A DNA stretch of 64,000 nucleotides from Methylobacillus gramineus. Lineage in GTDB: Bacteria > Pseudomonadota > Gammaproteobacteria > Burkholderiales > Methylophilaceae. A program made the translations under genes and the position numbers. Positions 16,923 through 41,387 of this stretch are shown piece by piece. The notes under the pieces were generated by a model, which worked only from the letters and a program-made list of their open reading frames with translations, did not search any database and was not told the origin of the DNA. Positions within the stretch are counted from its first letter, which is position 1. The number at the start of each line of letters is the position of its first letter. Location: assembly GCF_020532675.1 (NCBI RefSeq), contig NZ_JAJAVE010000003.1:62001-126000 (forward strand), in the 5' to 3' direction.

Positions 16923-18335
<1,413 letters not shown>

Positions 18336-30778: not shown

Positions 30779-30892
30779 GTCATATATCAATCATTTAAAT
30801 GCGATTAATTTGTATTAGCTGAGCTGTTTTTGATTGTTATGGGGCATAGGAAATAGGGAAACCTGTTTTCAATGGTCAATAAGGGAAAATCA

Positions 30893-33367
30893 ATGCAGCA
30901 ACAGCACGGTAGTCAGCAGATTCAACATCATCATTTCAGGCTTCGCATTGCAGGCTTTGCTGTCGCACAAGCCTTGTCTAGCATGGCGCTCATCGCCTTG
31001 CCAGTATTGGCGATCAGCAGCCCTCAGGCGGCTGAAGCCGATGTGCAGCGTTACCATATTCCAGCTGGTTCGCTAAAGGAAGCACTGAACCGATTCGGGC
31101 GCGAAGCTGGTGTCATGATTGCTTTCACCAATGAAATAGCCTCAGGCCTGCACAGTAACGGCCTTGATAACGCCTATTCTGCGCGCGATGGTCTCAACGC
31201 GCTATTGCTTGGCACAGGCCTGGAAGCGGTGCAGCAGGAAAATGGTGGTTATCTCGTGCGCAAGGCGGGTGTGGCAGCCCCAAGTAAAGGAGCTGCATCT
31301 ACCCTTGAAGAAGTCAAAGTAAGCGCCAGCAAGGATCCTACTACTGAGAATACCGGCTCCTACACCACAAGCTCCACCGGTGCTTCCGCCAAATTGCCCA
31401 TGTCATTACGTCACACGCCACAGTCGGTCAGTGTAATCACCAGGCAGCGCATGGACGACCAGAACCTGACGCAGTTGCAGGAAGTGCTGGAGCAAACAGT
31501 GGGTATTAGTGTGGTACAAAGCGGCTATGTAGGTGCCAACTGGAACACTTTCCAGTCCCGTGGGTTCAACATTCATAATTATCTTGTAGATGGCTTGCCT
31601 CTAGGTAGTGGCGGTTTTGAATTGATGACCAACGATATGGCTTTTTATGATCGGGTGGAAATCGTACGCGGTTCCAATGGCTTGATGCTTGGTATTGGTT
31701 CACCCGGGGGAAGTATTAATTACATCCGCAAAAAACCCACCAAGGAATTTCAGGCATCTGTTACAGGTCAACTTGGCTCGTGGGACAATTACCGCGGCAT
31801 GGTCGATATTTCTACCCCACTAAATCCTGATGGAAGTGTGCGTGGGCGCCTGGTGGCGGTTAAGCAAGATAGTGGATCCAATCTTGATCGGTATGGCGTT
31901 GAGCGGGAGATGCTGTACGGTATTGTCGAGGCTGACCTGACGCCATCAACGCTGTTCACTGCCGGTATGGAGTATCAGAATCATGAAACGCATGATTCAC
32001 CGGAAGCTGGGCTTCCCTTGTTCTATAGCAATGGTAGCCATACGAAATGGAATCGATCCAAGAATCCTGGGGCCAAATGGGCTTATAGCGAGAATGAGAA
32101 GTTTGCCTTCTTTACATCGCTTGAGCATTTTTTCGAAAATGATTGGCGTGCCAAAGTGCAATTCAATCAGTCGCGAAATCGTTATGACAGCGTGATAGGT
32201 GCAGGTGGTTCTGGCAGTCTCAACCAGAACACAGGCAGAGGTATTACATTATGGGGTGGTCGTTGGCAGGCGAAGCCGGTGCAGAATGGGCTCGATGCTT
32301 ACGCTTCCGGACCGTTTTCACTAGGCGGGCGTCAGCATGAGTTGATATTCGGGCTGAATTATTCACATACCGAGTATAACCAGCCAACATACAGACTGTG
32401 GCAAATACTTCCAGTAGACAATTATTTTGACTGGGATGGCGATATTGCTAAGCCAGACATGCCATCAACGGGACGCAGTGATTTCCGGTCACGCCAGTTT
32501 GGCGGTTATATGACAGCCAAGTTCAAGCCAGCAGATCGATTGTCCATCCTGGCGGGGGCCAGAATAGTACATTGGCATCGCTCAGTCGAAACTCTTCCTT
32601 ATGTAGGTGCCTCTAGGTTGGCAAGCCGTGATGAAACAGGAATAGTAACCCCATACCTGGCAGCCACTTATGACATCACTGATAACGCTTCTGTGTACAC
32701 AAGTTATACGAAAATCTTTAACCCGCAGGTCAGTGCCATGGATAGAAATGGTAGCTATCTGGATCCAGAGGAAGGCGATAGCTACGAAGCGGGAATAAAG
32801 CATGCCTTGTATGGCGGTCGTCTGAACACCAGCCTGGCAATCTTCAGAGTGGAGCAGGATAACCTGGCTGTACCAGATACGGGTTTCCTTACACCTGCTG
32901 GCGGTAGTGCTTCACGTGCTGAACAAGGTACTGTCACCAAGGGGTTTGAAGCAGAGGCAAGTGGTGAGCTAGCACCGGGCTGGCAAGTCAGTGGAGGCTA
33001 TACCTTCCGAATTTCGCAAAATGCAGATGGAAATAAAATACAGACCGTGACACCGCAGAGCCTGTTCAAGTTGTTCACTACCTATACTCTGCCAGGTGCC
33101 TGGAACAAGGTGATGATTGGTGGCGGTGCAAACTGGCAAAGCCGGATTTATACCAATGATACTGGTCCTGGCAATGCATATCGGTTTACACAGGGGAGTT
33201 ATGCCGTTGTCAATTTGATGGCGCGTTATCAATTTGACGAGCATTTTTCAGCGGCATTAAATCTAAATAACCTGTTTGATAAGGCGTATTACACCAACAC
33301 GACAAGCAATATGGGCTTTTACGGCGCGCCACGTAATGCCATGCTGACGTTGAAGTATCAGTTCTAA
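30893..33367 (+). CDS. TonB-dependent siderophore receptor with signalling domain (cassette 1)
   Basis: This 824-residue outer-membrane receptor has a signal peptide (about 18-47). An STN signalling domain occupies about 50-118 (YHIPAGSLKEALNRFGREAG), followed by a plug domain (LPMSLRHTPQSVSVITRQRMDDQNL) and a 22-strand barrel ending in aromatic LTLKYQF. The STN domain would contact the periplasmic part of FecR. Start 30893 is preceded by AAGGGA; an upstream ATG at 30872 would add seven residues. The ligand is unknown; the TIGR-type siderophore receptor fold suggests a ferric hydroxamate or catecholate. It ends at a strong terminator. Confidence 0.92.
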   Translation: MQQQHGSQQIQHHHFRLRIAGFAVAQALSSMALIALPVLAISSPQAAEADVQRYHIPAGSLKEALNRFGREAGVMIAFTNEIASGLHSNGLDNAYSARDGLNALLLGTGLEAVQQENGGYLVRKAGVAAPSKGAASTLEEVKVSASKDPTTENTGSYTTSSTGASAKLPMSLRHTPQSVSVITRQRMDDQNLTQLQEVLEQTVGISVVQSGYVGANWNTFQSRGFNIHNYLVDGLPLGSGGFELMTNDMAFYDRVEIVRGSNGLMLGIGSPGGSINYIRKKPTKEFQASVTGQLGSWDNYRGMVDISTPLNPDGSVRGRLVAVKQDSGSNLDRYGVEREMLYGIVEADLTPSTLFTAGMEYQNHETHDSPEAGLPLFYSNGSHTKWNRSKNPGAKWAYSENEKFAFFTSLEHFFENDWRAKVQFNQSRNRYDSVIGAGGSGSLNQNTGRGITLWGGRWQAKPVQNGLDAYASGPFSLGGRQHELIFGLNYSHTEYNQPTYRLWQILPVDNYFDWDGDIAKPDMPSTGRSDFRSRQFGGYMTAKFKPADRLSILAGARIVHWHRSVETLPYVGASRLASRDETGIVTPYLAATYDITDNASVYTSYTKIFNPQVSAMDRNGSYLDPEEGDSYEAGIKHALYGGRLNTSLAIFRVEQDNLAVPDTGFLTPAGGSASRAEQGTVTKGFEAEASGELAPGWQVSGGYTFRISQNADGNKIQTVTPQSLFKLFTTYTLPGAWNKVMIGGGANWQSRIYTNDTGPGNAYRFTQGSYAVVNLMARYQFDEHFSAALNLNNLFDKAYYTNTTSNMGFYGAPRNAMLTLKYQF

Positions 33368-33431: not shown

Positions 33432-33447
33432 TGCACCAGTTTGGTGC
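33432..33447. promoter_or_regulatory. NtrC-type binding site 1
   Basis: TGCACCAGTTTGGTGC is a palindrome of two GCACCA half sites around GTT. It matches the enteric NtrC consensus TGCACCANNNTGGTGCA closely. It lies about 390 bases upstream of the sigma-54 promoter. Confidence 0.75.
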
Positions 33448-33646
33448 TTTTTACTGAGTGTCATGAAATAACGCAAGGGGTAATGTAATTAATTAAGCAA
33501 TTGATTTTAATTATTATATTGTCATTTATTACTTTTCCCCGTTATGTTAAAGAAATCTGGATTGCTCATTCGAAGTAATCTAAATAGCTTGTTGAGGCTA
33601 ATAATGGCAAGGAGTTAGGTAGGTTTTGTAGCAGAAAAGGACAATA

Positions 33647-33663
33647 TGCACACAATTTGTGCA
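33647..33663. promoter_or_regulatory. NtrC-type binding site 2
   Basis: TGCACACAATTTGTGCA is a perfect 17-bp palindrome of the NtrC class (TGCAC-N7-GTGCA). It is centred 30 bp from site 3, three helical turns, which would allow cooperative binding. Confidence 0.75.
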
Positions 33664-33676
33664 ATCTAAGGATATT

Positions 33677-33693
33677 TGCACAACTGTGGTGCG
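33677..33693. promoter_or_regulatory. NtrC-type binding site 3
   Basis: TGCACAACTGTGGTGCG keeps the TGCAC / TGGTGC halves with the right spacing. It lies about 140 bases upstream of the sigma-54 -24 element, a typical enhancer distance. Confidence 0.7.
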
Positions 33694-33821: not shown

Positions 33822-33837
33822 TGGTACAGGTCTTGCT
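33822..33837 (+). promoter_or_regulatory. sigma-54 (-24/-12) promoter of the glutamate synthase operon
   Basis: TGGTACAGGTCTTGCT fits the RpoN consensus TGGYRYR-N4-TTGCW at every position, with GG at 33823-33824 and GC at 33835-33836. Confidence 0.85.
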
Positions 33838-33946: not shown

Positions 33947-36900
33947 ATGCCGGTTGCGGTTAGCGCTCTGTCAGAATTTAACGAAATTGCTGGAGAAGTT
34001 CAATTGAGCACGATCGATAGTCCTTTGGGCGAAAACACTTTTGGTTTGTACGACAGTTCTCTTGAAAAAGATAACTGTGGTGTCGGTTTTATTACGCGCA
34101 AAGACGGCGTGCAGACCCATGATGTGTTGATCAAGGGTCATGAAGCGTTGTGTACTATTCCGCATCGAGGTGGTATGTCTGCCGAGGGTGTGGGTGACGG
34201 CGCGGGTGTTTCAATTGATCTTTCTTTATCCTTTTTCCGCAGGCTGACTGGTCAGGAGCTTGAATCTGGCAGTTTTGGAGTGGGCAATTTCTTCTTGCCA
34301 AGTGATGCGGCTGCGCATCCACGTGCCGAACACATTATTCAGGATGCGTTGAGTGCCAAGGGCTTCACGGTATTGCTCAAGCGTGAAGTGCCTGTCGACA
34401 ATACATCCATCCGCCCTGCTGCAGTGCGTTATCAGTTGCCTATCCAGCAATGGGTCTTTGCTGCGCCGCAGGATATTGATGTAGCGGAATTTGATCGCCG
34501 TATTTACCAAGCCTTGCTGGTGATCGAGGAGCAAGCTTATACAGACGCAGCACTCGCTGGCCTGTATCCGCTTTCCATGTCTGCACACACCCAGGTGCTC
34601 AAGGGGCGTTTGAATTCCAATGAAGTGATCCCTTATTTCCATGACCTTATGGAAGCGGATCATGCTGTACACACCATGTATTTCCATACCCGGTTCTCCA
34701 CCAATACTGACCCGCATCCCAGTATGGCGCAGCCATTCCGCATGATGGCGCACAATGGTGAGCTGAATACCGACCGTAAGAACCGCATTGCAGAAGCTGC
34801 ATTAGCCCGCGCCCGCAATGGCAAGATTTTTCGTCCCAAGGGGCAGTCCGATAGCTCCCGTCTGGATCAGACCTTGAACAGCCGCCTGATGGATGATGGC
34901 CTGGATCTGGTGACTGCGGTAGTGTCGATGATGCCACCTGCCTGGGAAAATGATGAAACCCTGCCGGAAAACATCCAGGCGATGCTGGAGTATTTCTCGC
35001 TGTATGAAGAGAAAAATGATGGCCCGGCTGCCCTGATCTTTGGCAATGGTACCGTCGTGGGTGCCCGCCTGGACCGACTTGGTCTGCGTCCATTGCGTAG
35101 CGTTGAAACCCAGGAATACCTGTGCGTCATGTCTGAAGCTGGCCAGATCAATTTTGCGCCTGAAAGTGTCTTGCGTCGTGGTCGTATTGAAGCTGGTGGC
35201 ATGCTCTATTTTGATCATGATCAGCAACGCTCTTTTGGCACACTGGAAACGCTGGAAATGCTGGCAGCCAAACGTGATTACAAGGAGCTGCTGGAAAAAG
35301 CGCGCGCGAATCTTGGTGACTTGCCTGCAGTAGCTGCGGAGACAGCCAGTTCTCCACAGCGTTATCACGGCAACCTTGAGCGCTATCAGCGCTTTGTCGC
35401 CTATTACTACAATCAGGAAAGCTTCAAGTTCATGATGGACCCGATGCTGGCAACCGGCGCAGAGAAAATCTCTGCCATGGGTTACGGCAATGCCATCAAT
35501 GCGCTGAGCGATCATGAAGGCGGCGTTGCGCACTACTTCTCGCAACGTTTTGCCCAGGTGACCAATCCCCCGCTGGATTCAATCCGTGAAGCGGATGGCA
35601 TGACCTTGCGCGTGGCGCTGGGTGCCAAACCGAACATGAATAAGGCTAGTGGTCGCCAGATCGTGATTGATTCGCCTATCCTGGGTCATCTGGATATGCT
35701 GAAACTGCGTGATCAGCAGGAAACACCCTATCGCTGCTTTGACATGTTGTACGCGCCTATCATCAATGATGCAGACGCGAATGCGGTGGTGCTGGAAAAG
35801 GCCATTGATGAACTGGCCAACGCCGTGGTGGCATTTGCCCGTGAAGAAGGCGGTATTGCCGTCATTTCTGATCGCCATGTCTCTTCCACCCTGGCTTCCA
35901 TGCCTTTGCTGGTCGTGGTGTCCGCCATCAACCAGCGCCTGATTGATGAAGGTTTGCGCCTGGATGTTTCCCTGGTAGCGGAAAGCGGCCAGGTTGTGTC
36001 TTCCCATCATATTGCTGCGGCACTGGGTTTTGGCGCTTCTGCGGTGTATCCGCTGGGCGTACAGATTCGTGCTGAAGAAAAGTATGCAGCGGATGCGGAC
36101 AAGGCCTTCAAGCGTTATGCCAAGGCTGCCGAAAAAGCCCTGATGAAGACCATGGGCAAGGTCGGCCTCTGTACTGTTGAAAGCTATATTGGCGGTGAGT
36201 TCTTTGAGCCTAACTTCCTGAATACCAACGACCGGGTGCTGAAAAAATATTTCCCCAACCTGAAAAACACCGTGGGTGGGGCTGACTTTGCCGTGATCGC
36301 GCAAATGGTGGTGGATTGGCATCAGCGTGCCCTGATCGTGACCGATGAAAACAGTGTGCCTTTACTCGGCCTGTTCAAGGAGCGTTCAGAAGGTGCTGGT
36401 CACTCTTATGGCACCATCGCGGTTCGCGGTTTTGTCGACATGACCGAAGAAAAAATCCATTTCGATAAGCAGGAAAAGCGGCCTGAAGATGAGTTCCTGC
36501 GCCTGATGACACTGTCACGCCTGGAAGATGCATTTGCCCTGAAAAAGGAAGATGCCTTTAATAATGGCAGCTTTGATCGTCTGAGTAATGAAGCGATCAA
36601 CCAGTTTGACGTGACCAGCAGCTATCGCAGTTTTTCCCACATGATGGCAGAAGAGCGCGAGAAGCGGCCTGCGGCGTTGCGCGATGTGCTGGAGTTCCCG
36701 GCAGATGTCAGCAAGCTCAAGACTGAAGCCGAATTCCGCAAGGTGCTGGGACGCTTTGCCATTGTTGGCAATAACAGCGTGATGATTCGTGGCTTGAAGA
36801 GCGAGGTACTGGAAAATGGGCGTTTCAGCCTGCATTTGACTGGCCCTCTTGCCTCAGACATTACCCGTCTTTCTACCCTTGGCCAGGCGCTGGTGGCACA

Positions 36901-39517
36901 TTTTGGTCACGATATCAGTGGTCACTGGATGGAAAGTGATGCCCTGACAGTAGAAGCCAGTGGCAATGCCGCTGATTATCTCAAGCTATTGCGGGTGGCC
37001 CCGGAAAGCCTGCCACTGGCAGACGTGCAGCCAGCAAGTGAGATTACCCGTAGCTTTGCTTCCGGTGCCATGAGTCATGGCGCGCTGGTGGCACCTGCGC
37101 ATGAGGCGGTGGCGCACGGTACCAATATGGTGGGCGGTATGTCCAATTCCGGTGAAGGTGGCGAGCATATGACGCGTTACGGCACTATCCGTGCCTCGCG
37201 TATCAAACAGTTGGCTTCAGGTCGCTTCGGTGTATGGGCAGGCTATCTGGCTGACCCTATGCTGGAAGAGCTGGAAATCAAGATTGGTCAGGGTGCCAAG
37301 CCAGGTGAAGGCGGTCAGCTTCCTGCTCCCAAGGTAACAGTGGAAATTGCTGCTGCGCGTGGCGGTACACCAGGGGTTGAGCTGGTTTCACCGCCGCCCC
37401 ATCACGATACTTATTCGATTGAAGATCTGGCGCAGTTGATCCATGACTGCAAGGCTGCGCGCGTTCGCGTGATCGTTAAGCTGGTGTCTTCAGAAGGGAT
37501 AGGCACGATTGCTGTTGGCGTTGCCAAGGCGGGTGCCGACGTGATCAACGTGGCCGGTAATACTGGCGGCACTGGTGCCGCTTCTGTGACCAGCTTGAAA
37601 TACACTGGTCGTGCTGCGGAAATCGGTATTGCTGAAGTGCACCAGGCATTGTCTGCCAACGGTTTGCGCGACAAAGTGATCCTGCGTTGCTCCGGCGCGC
37701 ACCAGACAGCTAGCGACGTGGTGAAATCTGCCATGCTGGGAGGCGACAGTTTTGAATTTGGCACTACCGCATTGATGATGTTGAAATGCGTGATGGCGAA
37801 GAACTGTAACGTCAAGTGCCCTGCTGGCCTGACCACCAATGCGGAAGTATTTGATGGTGACCCACGTGCCCTGGCGCAATACCTGTTGAACGTGGCCCAT
37901 GAAACTCGCGAGATTCTCGCGACGATTGGCCTGCACTCGCTGGCGGAAGCGCGTGGTCGTTCCGACTTGCTGCAATTACTTGATCACCCTTCCAGCGTCG
38001 GCCAGCTTGACCTGCGTGCCATGTTGACCGTAGTGCCTGAAGTGAAGATTGAAAATCCTGTCTACATGGAAAAAGACTACGCATTGGACGATGCTTTCAT
38101 CGACCAGCTGCGAGCTGCTCTTGTAGAGGGCAAAGCACTGGAAGTGAGCCTGGGTGAAGGCCGCAGACTCAACAACTGTCATAAGAGTGTGGGTGGCCAG
38201 CTGGCTATTGATATCGAGCGCATGCTTAATCATGACATGAACGCGCAACAGGCATTGAGCTTGCCAGCAGCGGCCATGGATAAGCGCGGTCGTCGTTACC
38301 TCAAGCCAGGTAGCGTGGTGGTCAGCACCAGTGGTTCTGCTGGTCAGTCTTATGGAGCATTCTGCAACGATGGCATGATCATGCGTCACAGTGGTACCTG
38401 TAACGACGGCGTGGGCAAGGGCCAGTGCGGTGGTTCCATCATCGTCACCTCTCCAGGTGGCGGTTCTGAGCAAGCTGGTGGCAACGTGCTGGTGGGTAAC
38501 TTTGCCTTGTTTGGCGCTACCGGTGGCCGCCTGTTTGTCGAAGGCCAGGCTGGCGACCGCTTTGCCGTGCGTAACTCAGGCACCACTGCCGTGGTTGAAG
38601 GCGTGGGCGATTTTGCCTGTGAATACATGACCAATGGCGCGGTACTGAACCTGGGTGCATTCGGCAAGGGCTTCGGTAACGGCATGAGTGGTGGTTTTGC
38701 TTACCAGTATGATCCTTATGGTGAGCTGGCGGGCAAGGCTGCTGCGGACTCTGTGCTGCTAGGTTCTATTACAGACGGTAGCGAAATGGCGCTGGTGCAT
38801 AGCCAGGCTGTACAGCAGTTGTTGCAATGGCACCTGGAAGCCACGGGTTCCAAGCGTGCCGCGTGGTTGCTGGAGAATTGGGAAGCTGAACAGCACAACT
38901 TTGCCTATGTCATGCCGCGTGCGCTGTTGTTATATCAGGACAGTACGGAAATCCTCAAGGCCAAGCCCCGGAAAGACCTGCTGGAAGAGCTGTCGGTTGC
39001 GCTGGCTTCGTTCCAAGTGCGCAAGTTCAAGCTGGCATACCGGGATGGCAAGCCAGTATTGGGCGGCAAGGTGCCTGCTTATGGCGACACCGACACTCAG
39101 GACATGTTTGAGCTGCTGAACAACTATACCGTACTGAACATGGCACAACAGGTAGCGCTGGCGAAGGTACCGCAAGCAAAGGATGCTGCTGATCCTGCCG
39201 TGCAGAAGGCAGTGCGTAACTTGCTTCTGACGGAAGATTTTGTGCTGATGCAGAAGCTGCAACGCTACGCGCGTGAAGCGATTGAGGACTATGGTGATGA
39301 AGAGCTTGCCGTATTGATCGCAGATAAGCGTTTGTCTGATTACAAGGCTGCATTGAGTCAGCGCAATATTCTCTCCATGGATAGCCCAGGTACGTATGGC
39401 TGGATCATCCACCAGAGTTTCAAAAACCGCGGCCTGATTGGTGCGTTGCCCAGCCTGGAAGAACTGTTTGCCAAGTCTTCCCTGCTTGAGCTTGCCACTG
39501 CGCTGAAGTCCAACTGA
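33947..39517 (+). CDS. gltB: divergent glutamate synthase (GOGAT) large subunit with extra domains
   Basis: This 1856-residue enzyme should make two glutamates from glutamine and 2-oxoglutarate. The N-terminal amidotransferase nucleophile is Cys44 in DNCGVGFI, so about 43 residues would be removed. The amidotransferase and central domains reach about 800. The FMN synthase domain (about 1030-1340) has FASGAMSHGAL, GGMSNSGEGGE, GQGAKPGEGGQLPAPKV and VSPPPHHDTYSIEDL. The GXGXG domain ends near 1670. It is about 350 residues longer than E. coli or Azospirillum GltB: an insertion of about 100 residues precedes the FMN domain and about 185 unrecognised residues follow GXGXG. The Fe-S cysteines C1281, C1287, C1291 are spaced x5-x3, not x5-x4. 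It is followed by a diflavin reductase rather than gltD. Confidence 0.93.
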   Translation: MPVAVSALSEFNEIAGEVQLSTIDSPLGENTFGLYDSSLEKDNCGVGFITRKDGVQTHDVLIKGHEALCTIPHRGGMSAEGVGDGAGVSIDLSLSFFRRLTGQELESGSFGVGNFFLPSDAAAHPRAEHIIQDALSAKGFTVLLKREVPVDNTSIRPAAVRYQLPIQQWVFAAPQDIDVAEFDRRIYQALLVIEEQAYTDAALAGLYPLSMSAHTQVLKGRLNSNEVIPYFHDLMEADHAVHTMYFHTRFSTNTDPHPSMAQPFRMMAHNGELNTDRKNRIAEAALARARNGKIFRPKGQSDSSRLDQTLNSRLMDDGLDLVTAVVSMMPPAWENDETLPENIQAMLEYFSLYEEKNDGPAALIFGNGTVVGARLDRLGLRPLRSVETQEYLCVMSEAGQINFAPESVLRRGRIEAGGMLYFDHDQQRSFGTLETLEMLAAKRDYKELLEKARANLGDLPAVAAETASSPQRYHGNLERYQRFVAYYYNQESFKFMMDPMLATGAEKISAMGYGNAINALSDHEGGVAHYFSQRFAQVTNPPLDSIREADGMTLRVALGAKPNMNKASGRQIVIDSPILGHLDMLKLRDQQETPYRCFDMLYAPIINDADANAVVLEKAIDELANAVVAFAREEGGIAVISDRHVSSTLASMPLLVVVSAINQRLIDEGLRLDVSLVAESGQVVSSHHIAAALGFGASAVYPLGVQIRAEEKYAADADKAFKRYAKAAEKALMKTMGKVGLCTVESYIGGEFFEPNFLNTNDRVLKKYFPNLKNTVGGADFAVIAQMVVDWHQRALIVTDENSVPLLGLFKERSEGAGHSYGTIAVRGFVDMTEEKIHFDKQEKRPEDEFLRLMTLSRLEDAFALKKEDAFNNGSFDRLSNEAINQFDVTSSYRSFSHMMAEEREKRPAALRDVLEFPADVSKLKTEAEFRKVLGRFAIVGNNSVMIRGLKSEVLENGRFSLHLTGPLASDITRLSTLGQALVAHFGHDISGHWMESDALTVEASGNAADYLKLLRVAPESLPLADVQPASEITRSFASGAMSHGALVAPAHEAVAHGTNMVGGMSNSGEGGEHMTRYGTIRASRIKQLASGRFGVWAGYLADPMLEELEIKIGQGAKPGEGGQLPAPKVTVEIAAARGGTPGVELVSPPPHHDTYSIEDLAQLIHDCKAARVRVIVKLVSSEGIGTIAVGVAKAGADVINVAGNTGGTGAASVTSLKYTGRAAEIGIAEVHQALSANGLRDKVILRCSGAHQTASDVVKSAMLGGDSFEFGTTALMMLKCVMAKNCNVKCPAGLTTNAEVFDGDPRALAQYLLNVAHETREILATIGLHSLAEARGRSDLLQLLDHPSSVGQLDLRAMLTVVPEVKIENPVYMEKDYALDDAFIDQLRAALVEGKALEVSLGEGRRLNNCHKSVGGQLAIDIERMLNHDMNAQQALSLPAAAMDKRGRRYLKPGSVVVSTSGSAGQSYGAFCNDGMIMRHSGTCNDGVGKGQCGGSIIVTSPGGGSEQAGGNVLVGNFALFGATGGRLFVEGQAGDRFAVRNSGTTAVVEGVGDFACEYMTNGAVLNLGAFGKGFGNGMSGGFAYQYDPYGELAGKAAADSVLLGSITDGSEMALVHSQAVQQLLQWHLEATGSKRAAWLLENWEAEQHNFAYVMPRALLLYQDSTEILKAKPRKDLLEELSVALASFQVRKFKLAYRDGKPVLGGKVPAYGDTDTQDMFELLNNYTVLNMAQQVALAKVPQAKDAADPAVQKAVRNLLLTEDFVLMQKLQRYAREAIEDYGDEELAVLIADKRLSDYKAALSQRNILSMDSPGTYGWIIHQSFKNRGLIGALPSLEELFAKSSLLELATALKSN

Positions 39518-39535
39518 TAATAATATGCTTGATCT

Positions 39536-39561
39536 CATGCCGTGCTTGCGGGCACGGCATG
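39536..39561. repeat. intercistronic perfect hairpin
   Basis: CATGCCGTGC / GCACGGCATG forms a 10-bp stem with a TTGCGG loop between the glutamate synthase and reductase genes. No T run follows, so it is more likely an mRNA-processing or stability element than a terminator. Confidence 0.6.
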
Positions 39562-39580
39562 AACGACTAACGACTGAATC

Positions 39581-41332
39581 ATGAATATTCCCTACATTCC
39601 CGAAGACTCCCCTTTCAATACAGACCAGAAAGCCTGGCTGGCTGGATTCCTGGCAGGCATGAATACCCGCTTATTAGCGAGTGATCAGGCAGCTGGTGCT
39701 GCTCGTGCCAAACCGCCTGTGTATATCCTCTATGGCACCCAGACCGGTAATGCAGAAGGCCTTGCCCGTACTGCGGCTGCCACTGCCAAGAGCCATGGCC
39801 TGGAGCCGGTCGTCAAATCCCTGGACGAGGTTGAGCTGGAAGCTTTTGCTACCATGCGGCGCGTCATGATCGTGACTTCCACCTATGGTGAAGGCGAAAT
39901 GCCGGATAACGCCGAGCTGTTCTGGGAGGCGATCTCCTCTCCAACCATCGCACGCCTGGAAGAGATGACCTTTGGCGTGCTGGCAATTGGGGATACTGGT
40001 TACGATGGTTTCTGTGAAGCAGGCAAGCTGATCGACATGCGCCTGGAGCAGTTGGGTGCAAAGCGCCTGCTGGCAAGGGTGGATTGCGATGTGGATTTTG
40101 AAGAGCCCGCCAATGGCTGGATAGAAGCTGCCATGCCGTTGTTCGCAGAAGTAGAAGGTGGCCCGGATGAAGTGGCGGCAGCACCTGATACACCAGAAGC
40201 TGCGCCTGTGGTATCGGCCTATAACCGTAAAAACCCTTATGTTTCCACGCTGGCAGTCAATCGTCGCCTGTCTGGCAATGACTCTGCCAAGGAAATTCGC
40301 CACTATGAATTTGACCTGGCGGGTAGCGGACTGACCTATGAAGCGGGCGATGCCCTCAATGTGGTGCCGGAGAACGACCCAGCCTTGGTGGAGTTGATGT
40401 TGAACCGCCTGGGCGTGGCCGCCGATAAAGCGGTTGCCAAGCACGACAAGCCATTGGGTGAGCTGCTAAGCCGCTCATTGGAGATTTCAACGCCGTCACG
40501 CGAGTTGATTGCCGCCATTGAACAGCGTGCTGGCAATGAAGATTTGAGCAATATCGTCCGCAGTGGTGACAAAGAGGCCCTGGAAAACTGGTTGTGGGGC
40601 AAGGATACGCTGGACCTGCTGCAACTCAATCCAGCGCTAGCGCTTGAAGCGGATGACTTTGTCAGTCTGCTCAAGCCACTGCAACACCGTGCCTATTCCA
40701 TTTCCTCCAGTGCATTGGCTAACCCTGATCGGGTACACCTCACGATTGCGAGTGTGCGCTATCGCACTGGTGAACGTTTGCGCGGTGGTGTCTGCTCAAC
40801 TTACCTGGCTGACCGTGTCAATGAAGGTGACCAGGCCGGGATTTTTGTCACGACTAACAAGGCATTCCGCGTACCAGCGGACAAGGCTGCCCCTGTCATC
40901 ATGGTGGGCCCTGGTACCGGCATTGCCCCGTTCCGCGCCTTCCTGCAGGAGCGCCGTGAGTCTGGTGCCAATGGACGTAACTGGTTGTTCTTTGGTGACC
41001 AGAAGCGTGCCAGCGATTTTATCTATGAAGATGAGCTGACCGGCATGATGAAGGATGGCATATTGAGTCGTCTGGATCTGGCTTTCTCGCGCGATCAGTC
41101 AGACAAGATTTATGTCCAGACCCGCATGAAGGAGAACGGCAAGGAGCTGTTCGCCTGGTTGCAAGAGGGCGGCCATTTCTATGTCTGTGGCGATGCCAGC
41201 CGCATGGCCAAGGACGTGGATCAGGCGTTACATGATGTGATAGCCCAGCATGGTGGCTTGGATGCAGATGCCGCGGCTGGTTACGTCAATCAGCTCAAGC
41301 GTGAAAAGCGCTACCTGCGAGACGTCTATTAA
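39581..41332 (+). CDS. CysJ-like NADPH-flavodoxin/FAD diflavin reductase
   Basis: This 583-residue soluble protein has a flavodoxin (FMN) domain at about 48-190 (YGTQTGNAEGLA, TSTYGEGEMPDNA, IGDTGYDGFCEAGK). An FAD domain with connecting region runs over about 210-430 (RAYSISSSAL; GGVCSTYLADR), and an NADPH domain follows (MVGPGTGIAPFRAFLQER, FGDQKRASDFIY), ending YLRDVY like CysJ. It would pass electrons NADPH to FAD to FMN to a partner. Sulfite reductase flavoprotein is the closest name, but no hemoprotein (cysI) is near. It lies 63 bases after the glutamate synthase gene in the place of gltD. I infer that it may feed electrons to that enzyme. Sulfite reduction with a distant cysI remains possible. 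Confidence 0.88.
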   Translation: MNIPYIPEDSPFNTDQKAWLAGFLAGMNTRLLASDQAAGAARAKPPVYILYGTQTGNAEGLARTAAATAKSHGLEPVVKSLDEVELEAFATMRRVMIVTSTYGEGEMPDNAELFWEAISSPTIARLEEMTFGVLAIGDTGYDGFCEAGKLIDMRLEQLGAKRLLARVDCDVDFEEPANGWIEAAMPLFAEVEGGPDEVAAAPDTPEAAPVVSAYNRKNPYVSTLAVNRRLSGNDSAKEIRHYEFDLAGSGLTYEAGDALNVVPENDPALVELMLNRLGVAADKAVAKHDKPLGELLSRSLEISTPSRELIAAIEQRAGNEDLSNIVRSGDKEALENWLWGKDTLDLLQLNPALALEADDFVSLLKPLQHRAYSISSSALANPDRVHLTIASVRYRTGERLRGGVCSTYLADRVNEGDQAGIFVTTNKAFRVPADKAAPVIMVGPGTGIAPFRAFLQERRESGANGRNWLFFGDQKRASDFIYEDELTGMMKDGILSRLDLAFSRDQSDKIYVQTRMKENGKELFAWLQEGGHFYVCGDASRMAKDVDQALHDVIAQHGGLDADAAAGYVNQLKREKRYLRDVY

Positions 41333-41358: not shown

Positions 41359-41387
41359 AAAACGGGGCCATGTGCCCCGTTTTTTTT
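41359..41387. terminator. terminator of the glutamate synthase-reductase operon
   Basis: AAAACGGGGC / GCCCCGTTTT stem with a CATGT loop and an eight-T tail, 26 bases after the reductase stop. It shows that the two genes form one transcription unit. Confidence 0.93.

Follow-up and report, generated by a model that had tools for sequence, protein, structure and literature searches.

A long GltB-type protein and its neighbouring diflavin reductase very probably form a glutamate synthase with a different electron-input subunit

Glutamate synthase has a central place in the assimilation of ammonia. Here we analyze a gene pair that very probably encodes a form of this enzyme with a different electron-input subunit, found in a stretch of 64,000 nucleotides from Methylobacillus gramineus (contig NZ_JAJAVE010000003.1, positions 62,001 to 126,000; hereafter the window, numbered from its first letter). 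The first gene encodes a long protein of the type of GltB, the large subunit of glutamate synthase, and the second a diflavin reductase of the type of CysJ, the flavoprotein of sulfite reductase; GltX and Dfr are labels given in the present analysis. An initial annotation had read the two proteins as a glutamate synthase in which the reductase takes the place of the usual partner, GltD. Both open reading frames (ORFs) were confirmed at the coordinates below, together with the gap of 63 bp between them and a terminator-like hairpin where a single terminator was said to close the pair. The annotated 1856 residues are the length of the listed ORF, whose ATG at 33947 probably lies 19 codons upstream of the true start, because a TTG at 34004 has a GGAG just upstream and aligns with the ATG of two relatives (loci L019 and L073), giving a GltX of ~1837 aa.

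33947..39517, + strand: GltX, long GltB-type glutamate synthase large subunit, 1856 aa as listed, likely start at TTG 34004.
36584..37024, + strand: GltX-specific insert, residues 880-1026, upstream of the flavin mononucleotide (FMN) domain.
37787..37819, + strand: cysteines 1281, 1287 and 1291, presumed 3Fe-4S motif, C-x5-C-x3-C.
38897..39514, + strand: GltX-specific C-terminal helical domain, residues 1651-1856.
39581..41332, + strand: Dfr, CysJ-type diflavin reductase of 583 aa with flavodoxin/FMN, flavin adenine dinucleotide (FAD) and NADPH domains.
41359..41383, + strand: terminator-like hairpin (10-pair stem) and T-run after Dfr.

GltX has the domain order of GltB, with the Pfam domains GATase_2 at residues 44-447, Glu_syn_central at 482-754, Glu_synthase at 1019-1329 and GXGXG at 1442-1612. 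It barely passed the GltB equivalog model NF008730 (1050.7 bits, cut-off 1047), and its relatives in the PDB were 7mfm (792 bits), a glutamate synthase large chain that we take to be GltA of B. subtilis, Azospirillum GltB (716-725 bits) and the ferredoxin-dependent glutamate synthase 1llw (700 bits). Motifs, whose functional roles are general background, were followed in 76 of the 83 GltX candidates from the survey described below, the other seven (L020, L051, L068, L070, L072, L076 and L083) having no usable open frame. The glutaminase cysteine, HRGG, AHNGE, GEGGE, IKQxASGRFG, QGAKPGEGGQLP and SPPPHHD are intact in all 76 rows, and two motifs of the barrel are altered, GYDGGTGA to GNTGGTGA and DGGxKTG to SGAxQTx. 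All three cluster cysteines are present, and their spacing is C-x5-C-x3-C in 76/76 GltX rows, whereas 19 of 20 canonical GltB rows have C-x5-C-x4-C (the E. coli protein is counted twice among these 20, and no cluster motif was found in L102). Just behind this motif, ~5 residues are deleted in GltX.

Relative to bacterial GltB, GltX is longer by ~150 residues ahead of the FMN domain and by ~180-200 at the C-terminus, and neither region has a significant relative among Pfam and PDB sequences. The C-terminal domain predicted alone is all-helical, with a predicted local distance difference test (pLDDT) score of 84.8, and a Foldseek search with this model gave no convincing fold match. An AlphaFold2 model of residues 815-1856 was not used for docking because its mean pLDDT was 68.6 and much of the FMN barrel was poorly modelled; known glutamate synthases ranked first when it was submitted to Foldseek. 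In the drafts L070 and L051, GltX appears split across several matches, as do Dfr in L070 and rpoN and arcB in L051, which would reflect either decay or sequencing error.

Dfr combines the flavodoxin, FAD-binding and NAD-binding domains that make up the architecture of CysJ, and its best PDB match is CysJ 6efv (420 bits), to which it is alike over 540 residues. Against the CysJ equivalog model TIGR01931 it scored 611.6 bits, under the cut-off of 668.15, and the Dfrs of the pairs overall scored 577-660. Two of the 83 Dfr candidates (L070 and L083) had no usable open frame; in the other 81, the FAD motif RxYS and the NADPH motif are always present, strict FMN patterns occur in 73-77, and 33 match one strict FAD pattern. 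In a tree of 28 Dfr, seven CysJ and two nitrate-reductase fusions, unrooted, built by a quick method and with some long branches, each group fell on one side of a branch, with approximate likelihood ratio (SH-aLRT) supports of 98, 99 and 100, the branch of Dfr having 98. Related modules were seen beside two kinds of actinobacterial pair. In Tsukamurella sp. 8F (L094:8557-9753), a 399-aa FAD/NADPH module, 51% identical to the reductase half of Dfr and without a flavodoxin domain, lies between a canonical gltB and GltX. In the Rhodococcus loci L036, L039, L082 and L096 (~17276-17640), a flavodoxin-like stretch follows Dfr by ~45 bp, with ~31% identity to Dfr residues 47-163, and could be a stand-alone flavodoxin of the GltX-Dfr operon.

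To gain a view of how widely the pair is kept, we scanned for GltX. The scan hit 85 stretches, and the 80 best of these yielded 79 loci, grouped by their record titles into 45 Enterobacterales, four Methylobacillus, five Comamonadaceae, six Alphaproteobacteria, four SAR92-type Gammaproteobacteria (HTCC2207 being, we assume, SAR92) and 15 Actinomycetota. In 78 of the 79, GltX is immediately followed by Dfr, and the remaining locus, L083, stops at a contig edge; the survey of this neighbourhood proposed in the initial annotation thus found the reductase adjacent in Proteobacteria as well as Actinomycetota. All nine plasmid records with GltX have Dfr adjacent (9/9). In a sample of 369 genomes of the class, GltX is found in four (the host, G344, G298 and G198), a wide gap separating its scores of at least 1847 bits from canonical GltB at 483 bits or less, and Dfr adjoins it in each of the three genomes other than the host (3/3). 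The distances of GltX and Dfr are correlated (r = 0.94, n = 28 rows, 0/2000 permutations), a value that includes shared ancestry. The Rhodococcus locus L036 is nearer to the betaproteobacterial window than to the actinobacterial Pseudoclavibacter locus L050 in both proteins (72% vs 66% and 65% vs 59%), and therefore the pair seems, from these comparisons, to have crossed phyla as a unit.

When chosen neighbours of the pair in Comamonadaceae and L062 were scanned with Pfam, HrcA, upstream in L035 and L048, was the only third gene shared. Of the 79 loci, two contain a canonical gltD (L048 and L094) and two more have one at their edge (L050 and L054). In L066 (120-6905), a gene close to the pair encodes a protein of 2262 aa that combines 20 TIG domains with an autotransporter end. 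Two loci titled Enterobacter ludwigii and E. cancerogenus (L029 and L089) are of the Pantoea/Erwinia type, and their species names may be wrong.

In half of the carriers searched, canonical gltB and gltD were missing. Genomes were chosen for 50 of the 79 loci and 49 were searched (that of L067 was left out), with at least 474 bits for PF01645 taken as canonical GltB and a score above the model cut-off as GltD. Canonical gltB and gltD were both present in 24 and both absent in 25, namely two Methylobacillus, four Alphaproteobacteria, four SAR92-type and 15 Enterobacterales genomes. In 23 of these 25, no GltD-model hit of any kind was found at 1e-40, a threshold at which the E. coli control was detected. 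GltX is also present and gltD absent in G198 and G298, both 100% complete according to the tool used. A typical glutamate dehydrogenase (GDH; PF00208 above 50 bits, the large NAD-GDH not being searched) is absent in eight of the 25 (G012, G014-G019 and G046) and in G298. In Pantoea stewartii (G046, locus L042), none of typical GDH, canonical gltB and gltD was found, and GltX-Dfr would therefore be the only ammonia-to-glutamate route seen there; in the four SAR92-type genomes another gltB, gltD and a typical GDH hit are all absent.

In some lineages the pair also sits where gltBD would be expected. Among the Enterobacterales loci, arcB is upstream in 45/45, rpoN too in 44/45, and sspB is downstream in 42/45; these flanks are those of gltBD in E. 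coli MG1655. The core of the E. coli gltB promoter/leader was found before GltX in all ten loci tried (blastn, 76-90% over 52-112 bp). In the SAR92-type bacteria, the pair lies between aroB and hemE in 4/4 loci (markers from L046), and aroB, gltB, gltD and hemE occur together in five of the 17 class genomes with canonical gltB, the other 12 lacking at least one of them in the fetched stretch. Judging from this gene order, GltX-Dfr took over the place of gltBD in Pantoea/Erwinia as well as in the SAR92-type bacteria.

Published work on Pantoea ananatis points in the same direction. According to the available text of PMC12364357 (2025), the genome of strain AJ13355 has no close homolog of the E. 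coli glutamate synthase (GOGAT), its gltB is 64% identical to the GOGAT of A. tumefaciens, and a gltB knockout is a glutamate auxotroph (citing Hara et al. 2012); gltD is named in that text only as gltBD of E. coli. In P. ananatis LMG 2665 (L027), GltX shares 68% identity with that of A. pusense and 30-42% with GltB of E. coli, and gltD is absent from the P. ananatis type strain. Because of these identities, the gltB described in the available text of PMC12364357 is most likely GltX. With the terms used, we found no paper in the open-licence literature that describes a diflavin reductase as the partner of a glutamate synthase, and a review names, in its available text, only NADPH, NADH and ferredoxin types (PMC8097209).

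Neither gltD nor cysI had been reported near the pair in the initial annotation, which is correct for the neighbourhood; elsewhere in the genome, a check found a second gltB, a gltD and a gene for a CysI-like protein. Canonical gltB and gltD lie on contig C3, ~39 kb downstream of the pair (L097), with hemE adjoining, and a CysI-like protein of 561 aa is encoded on contig C1. The ORFs after the latter, read by eye, are presumably a DUF934-type protein, CysD and CysN. We take for NirB an open frame of 871 aa that contains a nitrite/sulfite-reductase domain, and a 1407-aa open frame at C1:1970552 carries a CysJ-like module behind a start that reads by eye as nitrate reductase. For the host's canonical gltB, no NtrC-like or sigma-54 site was seen within 800 bp upstream of its glutaminase cysteine.

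Such sites were found before GltX in the window (all NtrC and sigma-54 sites were scored solely by their match to a consensus):

33432..33448, + strand: NtrC-like site TGCACCAGTTTGGTGCT, 13/14 vs the consensus, overlapping a terminator-like stem.
33647..33663, + strand: NtrC-like site 1 TGCACACAATTTGTGCA, 11/14 vs the consensus.
33677..33693, + strand: NtrC-like site 2 TGCACAACTGTGGTGCG, 12/14, 30 bp past site 1.
33822..33837, + strand: sigma-54-type -24/-12 element TGGTACAGGTCTTGCT.

The 64-kb window contains eight NtrC-like sites of at least 11/14, three of them before GltX, and the -24/-12 pattern occurs three times on its two strands. Across five Methylobacillus loci, the -24/-12 element matches at 8-11 of its 11 fixed letters, and counterparts of site 1 match 9-11 of 14 letters in L018, L019, L070 and L073. 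The tandem arrangement at 30 bp is found in four of the five (the window, L019, L070 and L073) and is weak in L018, and L019, L070 and L073 have a similar third site 197-221 bp upstream of the tandem pair. These sites suggest that the Methylobacillus pair is probably induced by nitrogen limitation via NtrC and sigma-54. In Enterobacterales, an NtrC-like site of at least 12/14 lies within 600 bp upstream in 23 of 44 loci vs 0.016 expected per locus, an expectation taken from the rest of the same loci, which are related to one another. An Rfam search of the leader gave no family at the gathering score.

Taken together, we consider it very likely that GltX and Dfr together make up a fourth kind of glutamate synthase, distinct from NADPH-GltBD and from ferredoxin-dependent glutamate synthase (Fd-GltS). 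The analysis supports a new glutamate synthase with a different electron-input subunit, as first proposed, at the genomic level: through the pairing across phyla, the 25 of 49 carriers without gltBD, the in-place replacement, the carriers without a sulfite reductase domain, the Ntr-type promoter signals in Methylobacillus and the auxotrophy reported for P. ananatis in the available text of PMC12364357. In the GltD-type enzyme, electrons pass from FAD over two 4Fe-4S clusters to the 3Fe-4S cluster and FMN, as given in the available text of PMC8097209. For GltX-Dfr, we infer a physical complex, the electron path and the regulation. NADPH would reduce the FAD of Dfr, and electrons would move on to the FMN of its flavodoxin domain. 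This domain may dock on the remodelled 3Fe-4S side of GltX, where the cluster side, the insert and the C-terminal extension could together form the docking surface, and the Dfr FMN would then directly reduce the 3Fe-4S cluster and, through it, the synthase FMN. The FAD and FMN of Dfr would thereby stand in for the FAD and two 4Fe-4S clusters of GltD. The N-terminal cysteine of GltX would hydrolyse glutamine, and glutamate would be formed from the ammonia and 2-oxoglutarate. In the host Methylobacillus, the pair would work beside GltBD and probably be switched on under nitrogen limitation via NtrC and sigma-54.

Three other explanations have to be weighed. It is very unlikely that Dfr is the sulfite reductase flavoprotein CysJ, made for a distant CysI and merely encoded beside a glutamate synthase. 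Its best PDB match and its 611.6 bits with TIGR01931 would fit this, plasmid records label it sulfite reductase alpha subunit, and the CysI-like protein of the host has no flavoprotein alongside. However, the score is under the CysJ cut-off of 668.15, Dfr adjoins GltX in all 78 loci with room for it, and none of the 79 loci yielded a match to the host CysI. True CysJ above the cut-off occurs alongside a retained Dfr in seven of 29 genomes searched, and Dfr forms its own branch of the tree. The NIR_SIR domain is absent from six of the 49 carriers (all four SAR92-type genomes, L087 and Herbiconiux) and from the complete genome G198; Dfr is the sole CysJ-type protein of G198 at 1e-60, and the four SAR92-type genomes likewise have none besides the Dfr of the pair. 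Serving CysI is therefore not the rule for the Dfr family.

We see only a slight chance that GltX is fed by a distant GltD or by free ferredoxin or flavodoxin, Dfr being a general flavodoxin/ferredoxin reductase. A gltD is present in the host genome and canonical gltD lies within 10 kb of the pair in four loci (L048, L094 and, at the edge, L050 and L054), and the large subunit of Fd-GltS functions without GltD according to the available text of PMC8097209. Yet gltD above the cut-off is missing from 25 of the 49 carriers, the host gltD adjoins its own gltB, and Dfr, with an FMN domain of its own, is adjacent to GltX across phyla. Least probable of the three, and barely credible to us, is that GltX is a related amidotransferase-oxidoreductase with another product, as its altered barrel motifs, shortened cluster loop and two extra regions might suggest. 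The remaining barrel and glutaminase motifs are nonetheless intact in 76/76 rows, gltBD was replaced in place in two lineages, the four SAR92-type genomes have no other gltB, gltD or typical GDH hit, and the available text of PMC12364357 reports glutamate auxotrophy for P. ananatis.

Several points weigh against reading GltX and Dfr as a glutamate synthase. We found no enzyme assay, copurification or Dfr mutant phenotype. The auxotrophy is second-hand (Hara et al. 2012 via the available text of PMC12364357), and the identity of GltX comes from another strain. The host keeps canonical GltBD, so that the pair is not the sole route there and is therefore a second system, and its CysI-like protein has no flavoprotein beside it, so that Dfr may have a second use, in the CysJ role, in this organism. 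Several absences are based on metagenome-assembled, single-cell or draft genomes of untold completeness, and two of the 25 genomes (G043 and G044) encode ~650-aa GltD-like proteins under the cut-off, which we assume to be AegA-like. The NIR_SIR domain is also absent from three of 14 control genomes, and its absence is therefore not rare in itself. In the 44 Enterobacterales loci, no sigma-54 element better than 8/11 was seen.

The proposed enzyme resembles GltB/GltD (alpha/beta glutamate synthase) in its large-subunit domains, glutaminase cysteine, most barrel motifs and three cluster cysteines, and in its presumed donor, NADPH. It differs from it in the partner, a diflavin reductase, no gltD adjoining the pair, and in a large subunit that is only ~30-42% identical, with a cluster motif one residue shorter, the ~5-residue deletion behind it, and the ~150 residues before the FMN domain and ~180-200 at the C-terminus. 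Like Fd-GltS, GltX would be a large subunit fed by a small redox module without GltD; unlike in Fd-GltS, the presumed donor is encoded alongside and fused to an NADPH reductase, and GltX shows no special closeness to that class (700 bits in the PDB vs 792 for 7mfm). Dfr shares with CysJ the flavodoxin-FAD-NADPH architecture over 540 residues but lies under the equivalog cut-off and on a separate branch, has no adjoining CysI and occurs in genomes without a sulfite reductase domain. The nitrate reductase fusion of the host (C1:1970552) is a likeness of another kind, a CysJ-type module recruited to feed another reductase; there, the module is fused rather than separate and belongs to another tree branch than Dfr.

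Replacing GltD, with its two 4Fe-4S clusters, by the iron-free Dfr would cut the iron per active unit from 11 to 3. It is possible, and we offer it tentatively as something short of probable, that GltX-Dfr is an iron-lean fourth class of glutamate synthase and that low iron helped select and spread it. Support for this comes from DtxR/IdeR-like boxes (scored by consensus) upstream in 13 of the 15 actinobacterial loci scanned, 0-13 of 300 shuffles being as good (L053 was left out of the scan); among the 13, one Rhodococcus group accounts for five, Pseudoclavibacter for four and Tsukamurella for two, so that they represent ~5 lineages. L061, L075 and the four scanned loci from outside the actinobacteria showed no such box (61-290 of 300 shuffles scored as well). 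The iron-lean reading is also favored by genes for TonB receptors or siderophores that adjoin the pair in Methylobacillus, L066 and Ketogulonicigenium, and many other loci examined have none. Counter to this reading stand these neighbourhoods without iron genes, the box-less L061, L075 and four non-actinobacterial loci, the nitrogen-type signals of Methylobacillus, the inherited gltBD promoter in Enterobacterales and the lack of a clear Fur box. A Fur box upstream of the pair was looked for and rejected, the best 19-mers matching 9-14/19 at no consistent place. Around the pair in the window (24119-63917), ORFs of the size of TonB receptors and of regulators recur, seemingly as FecI/FecR/TonB units (30872-33367 was searched).

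GltX-Dfr seems to serve glutamate formation in many bacteria, among them relatives of Pantoea and some ocean bacteria, and its electron-feeding half usually carries a sulfite reductase label. If this is true, the only glutamate synthase found in the searched Pantoea, Erwinia and SAR92-type genomes had escaped notice because of that label, and the need of P. ananatis for gltB while it has no gltD would be explained. The pair would also clearly exemplify the in-place exchange of a two-gene enzyme behind an old promoter, and its recognition would correct the calls of sulfur and nitrogen pathways in many genomes.

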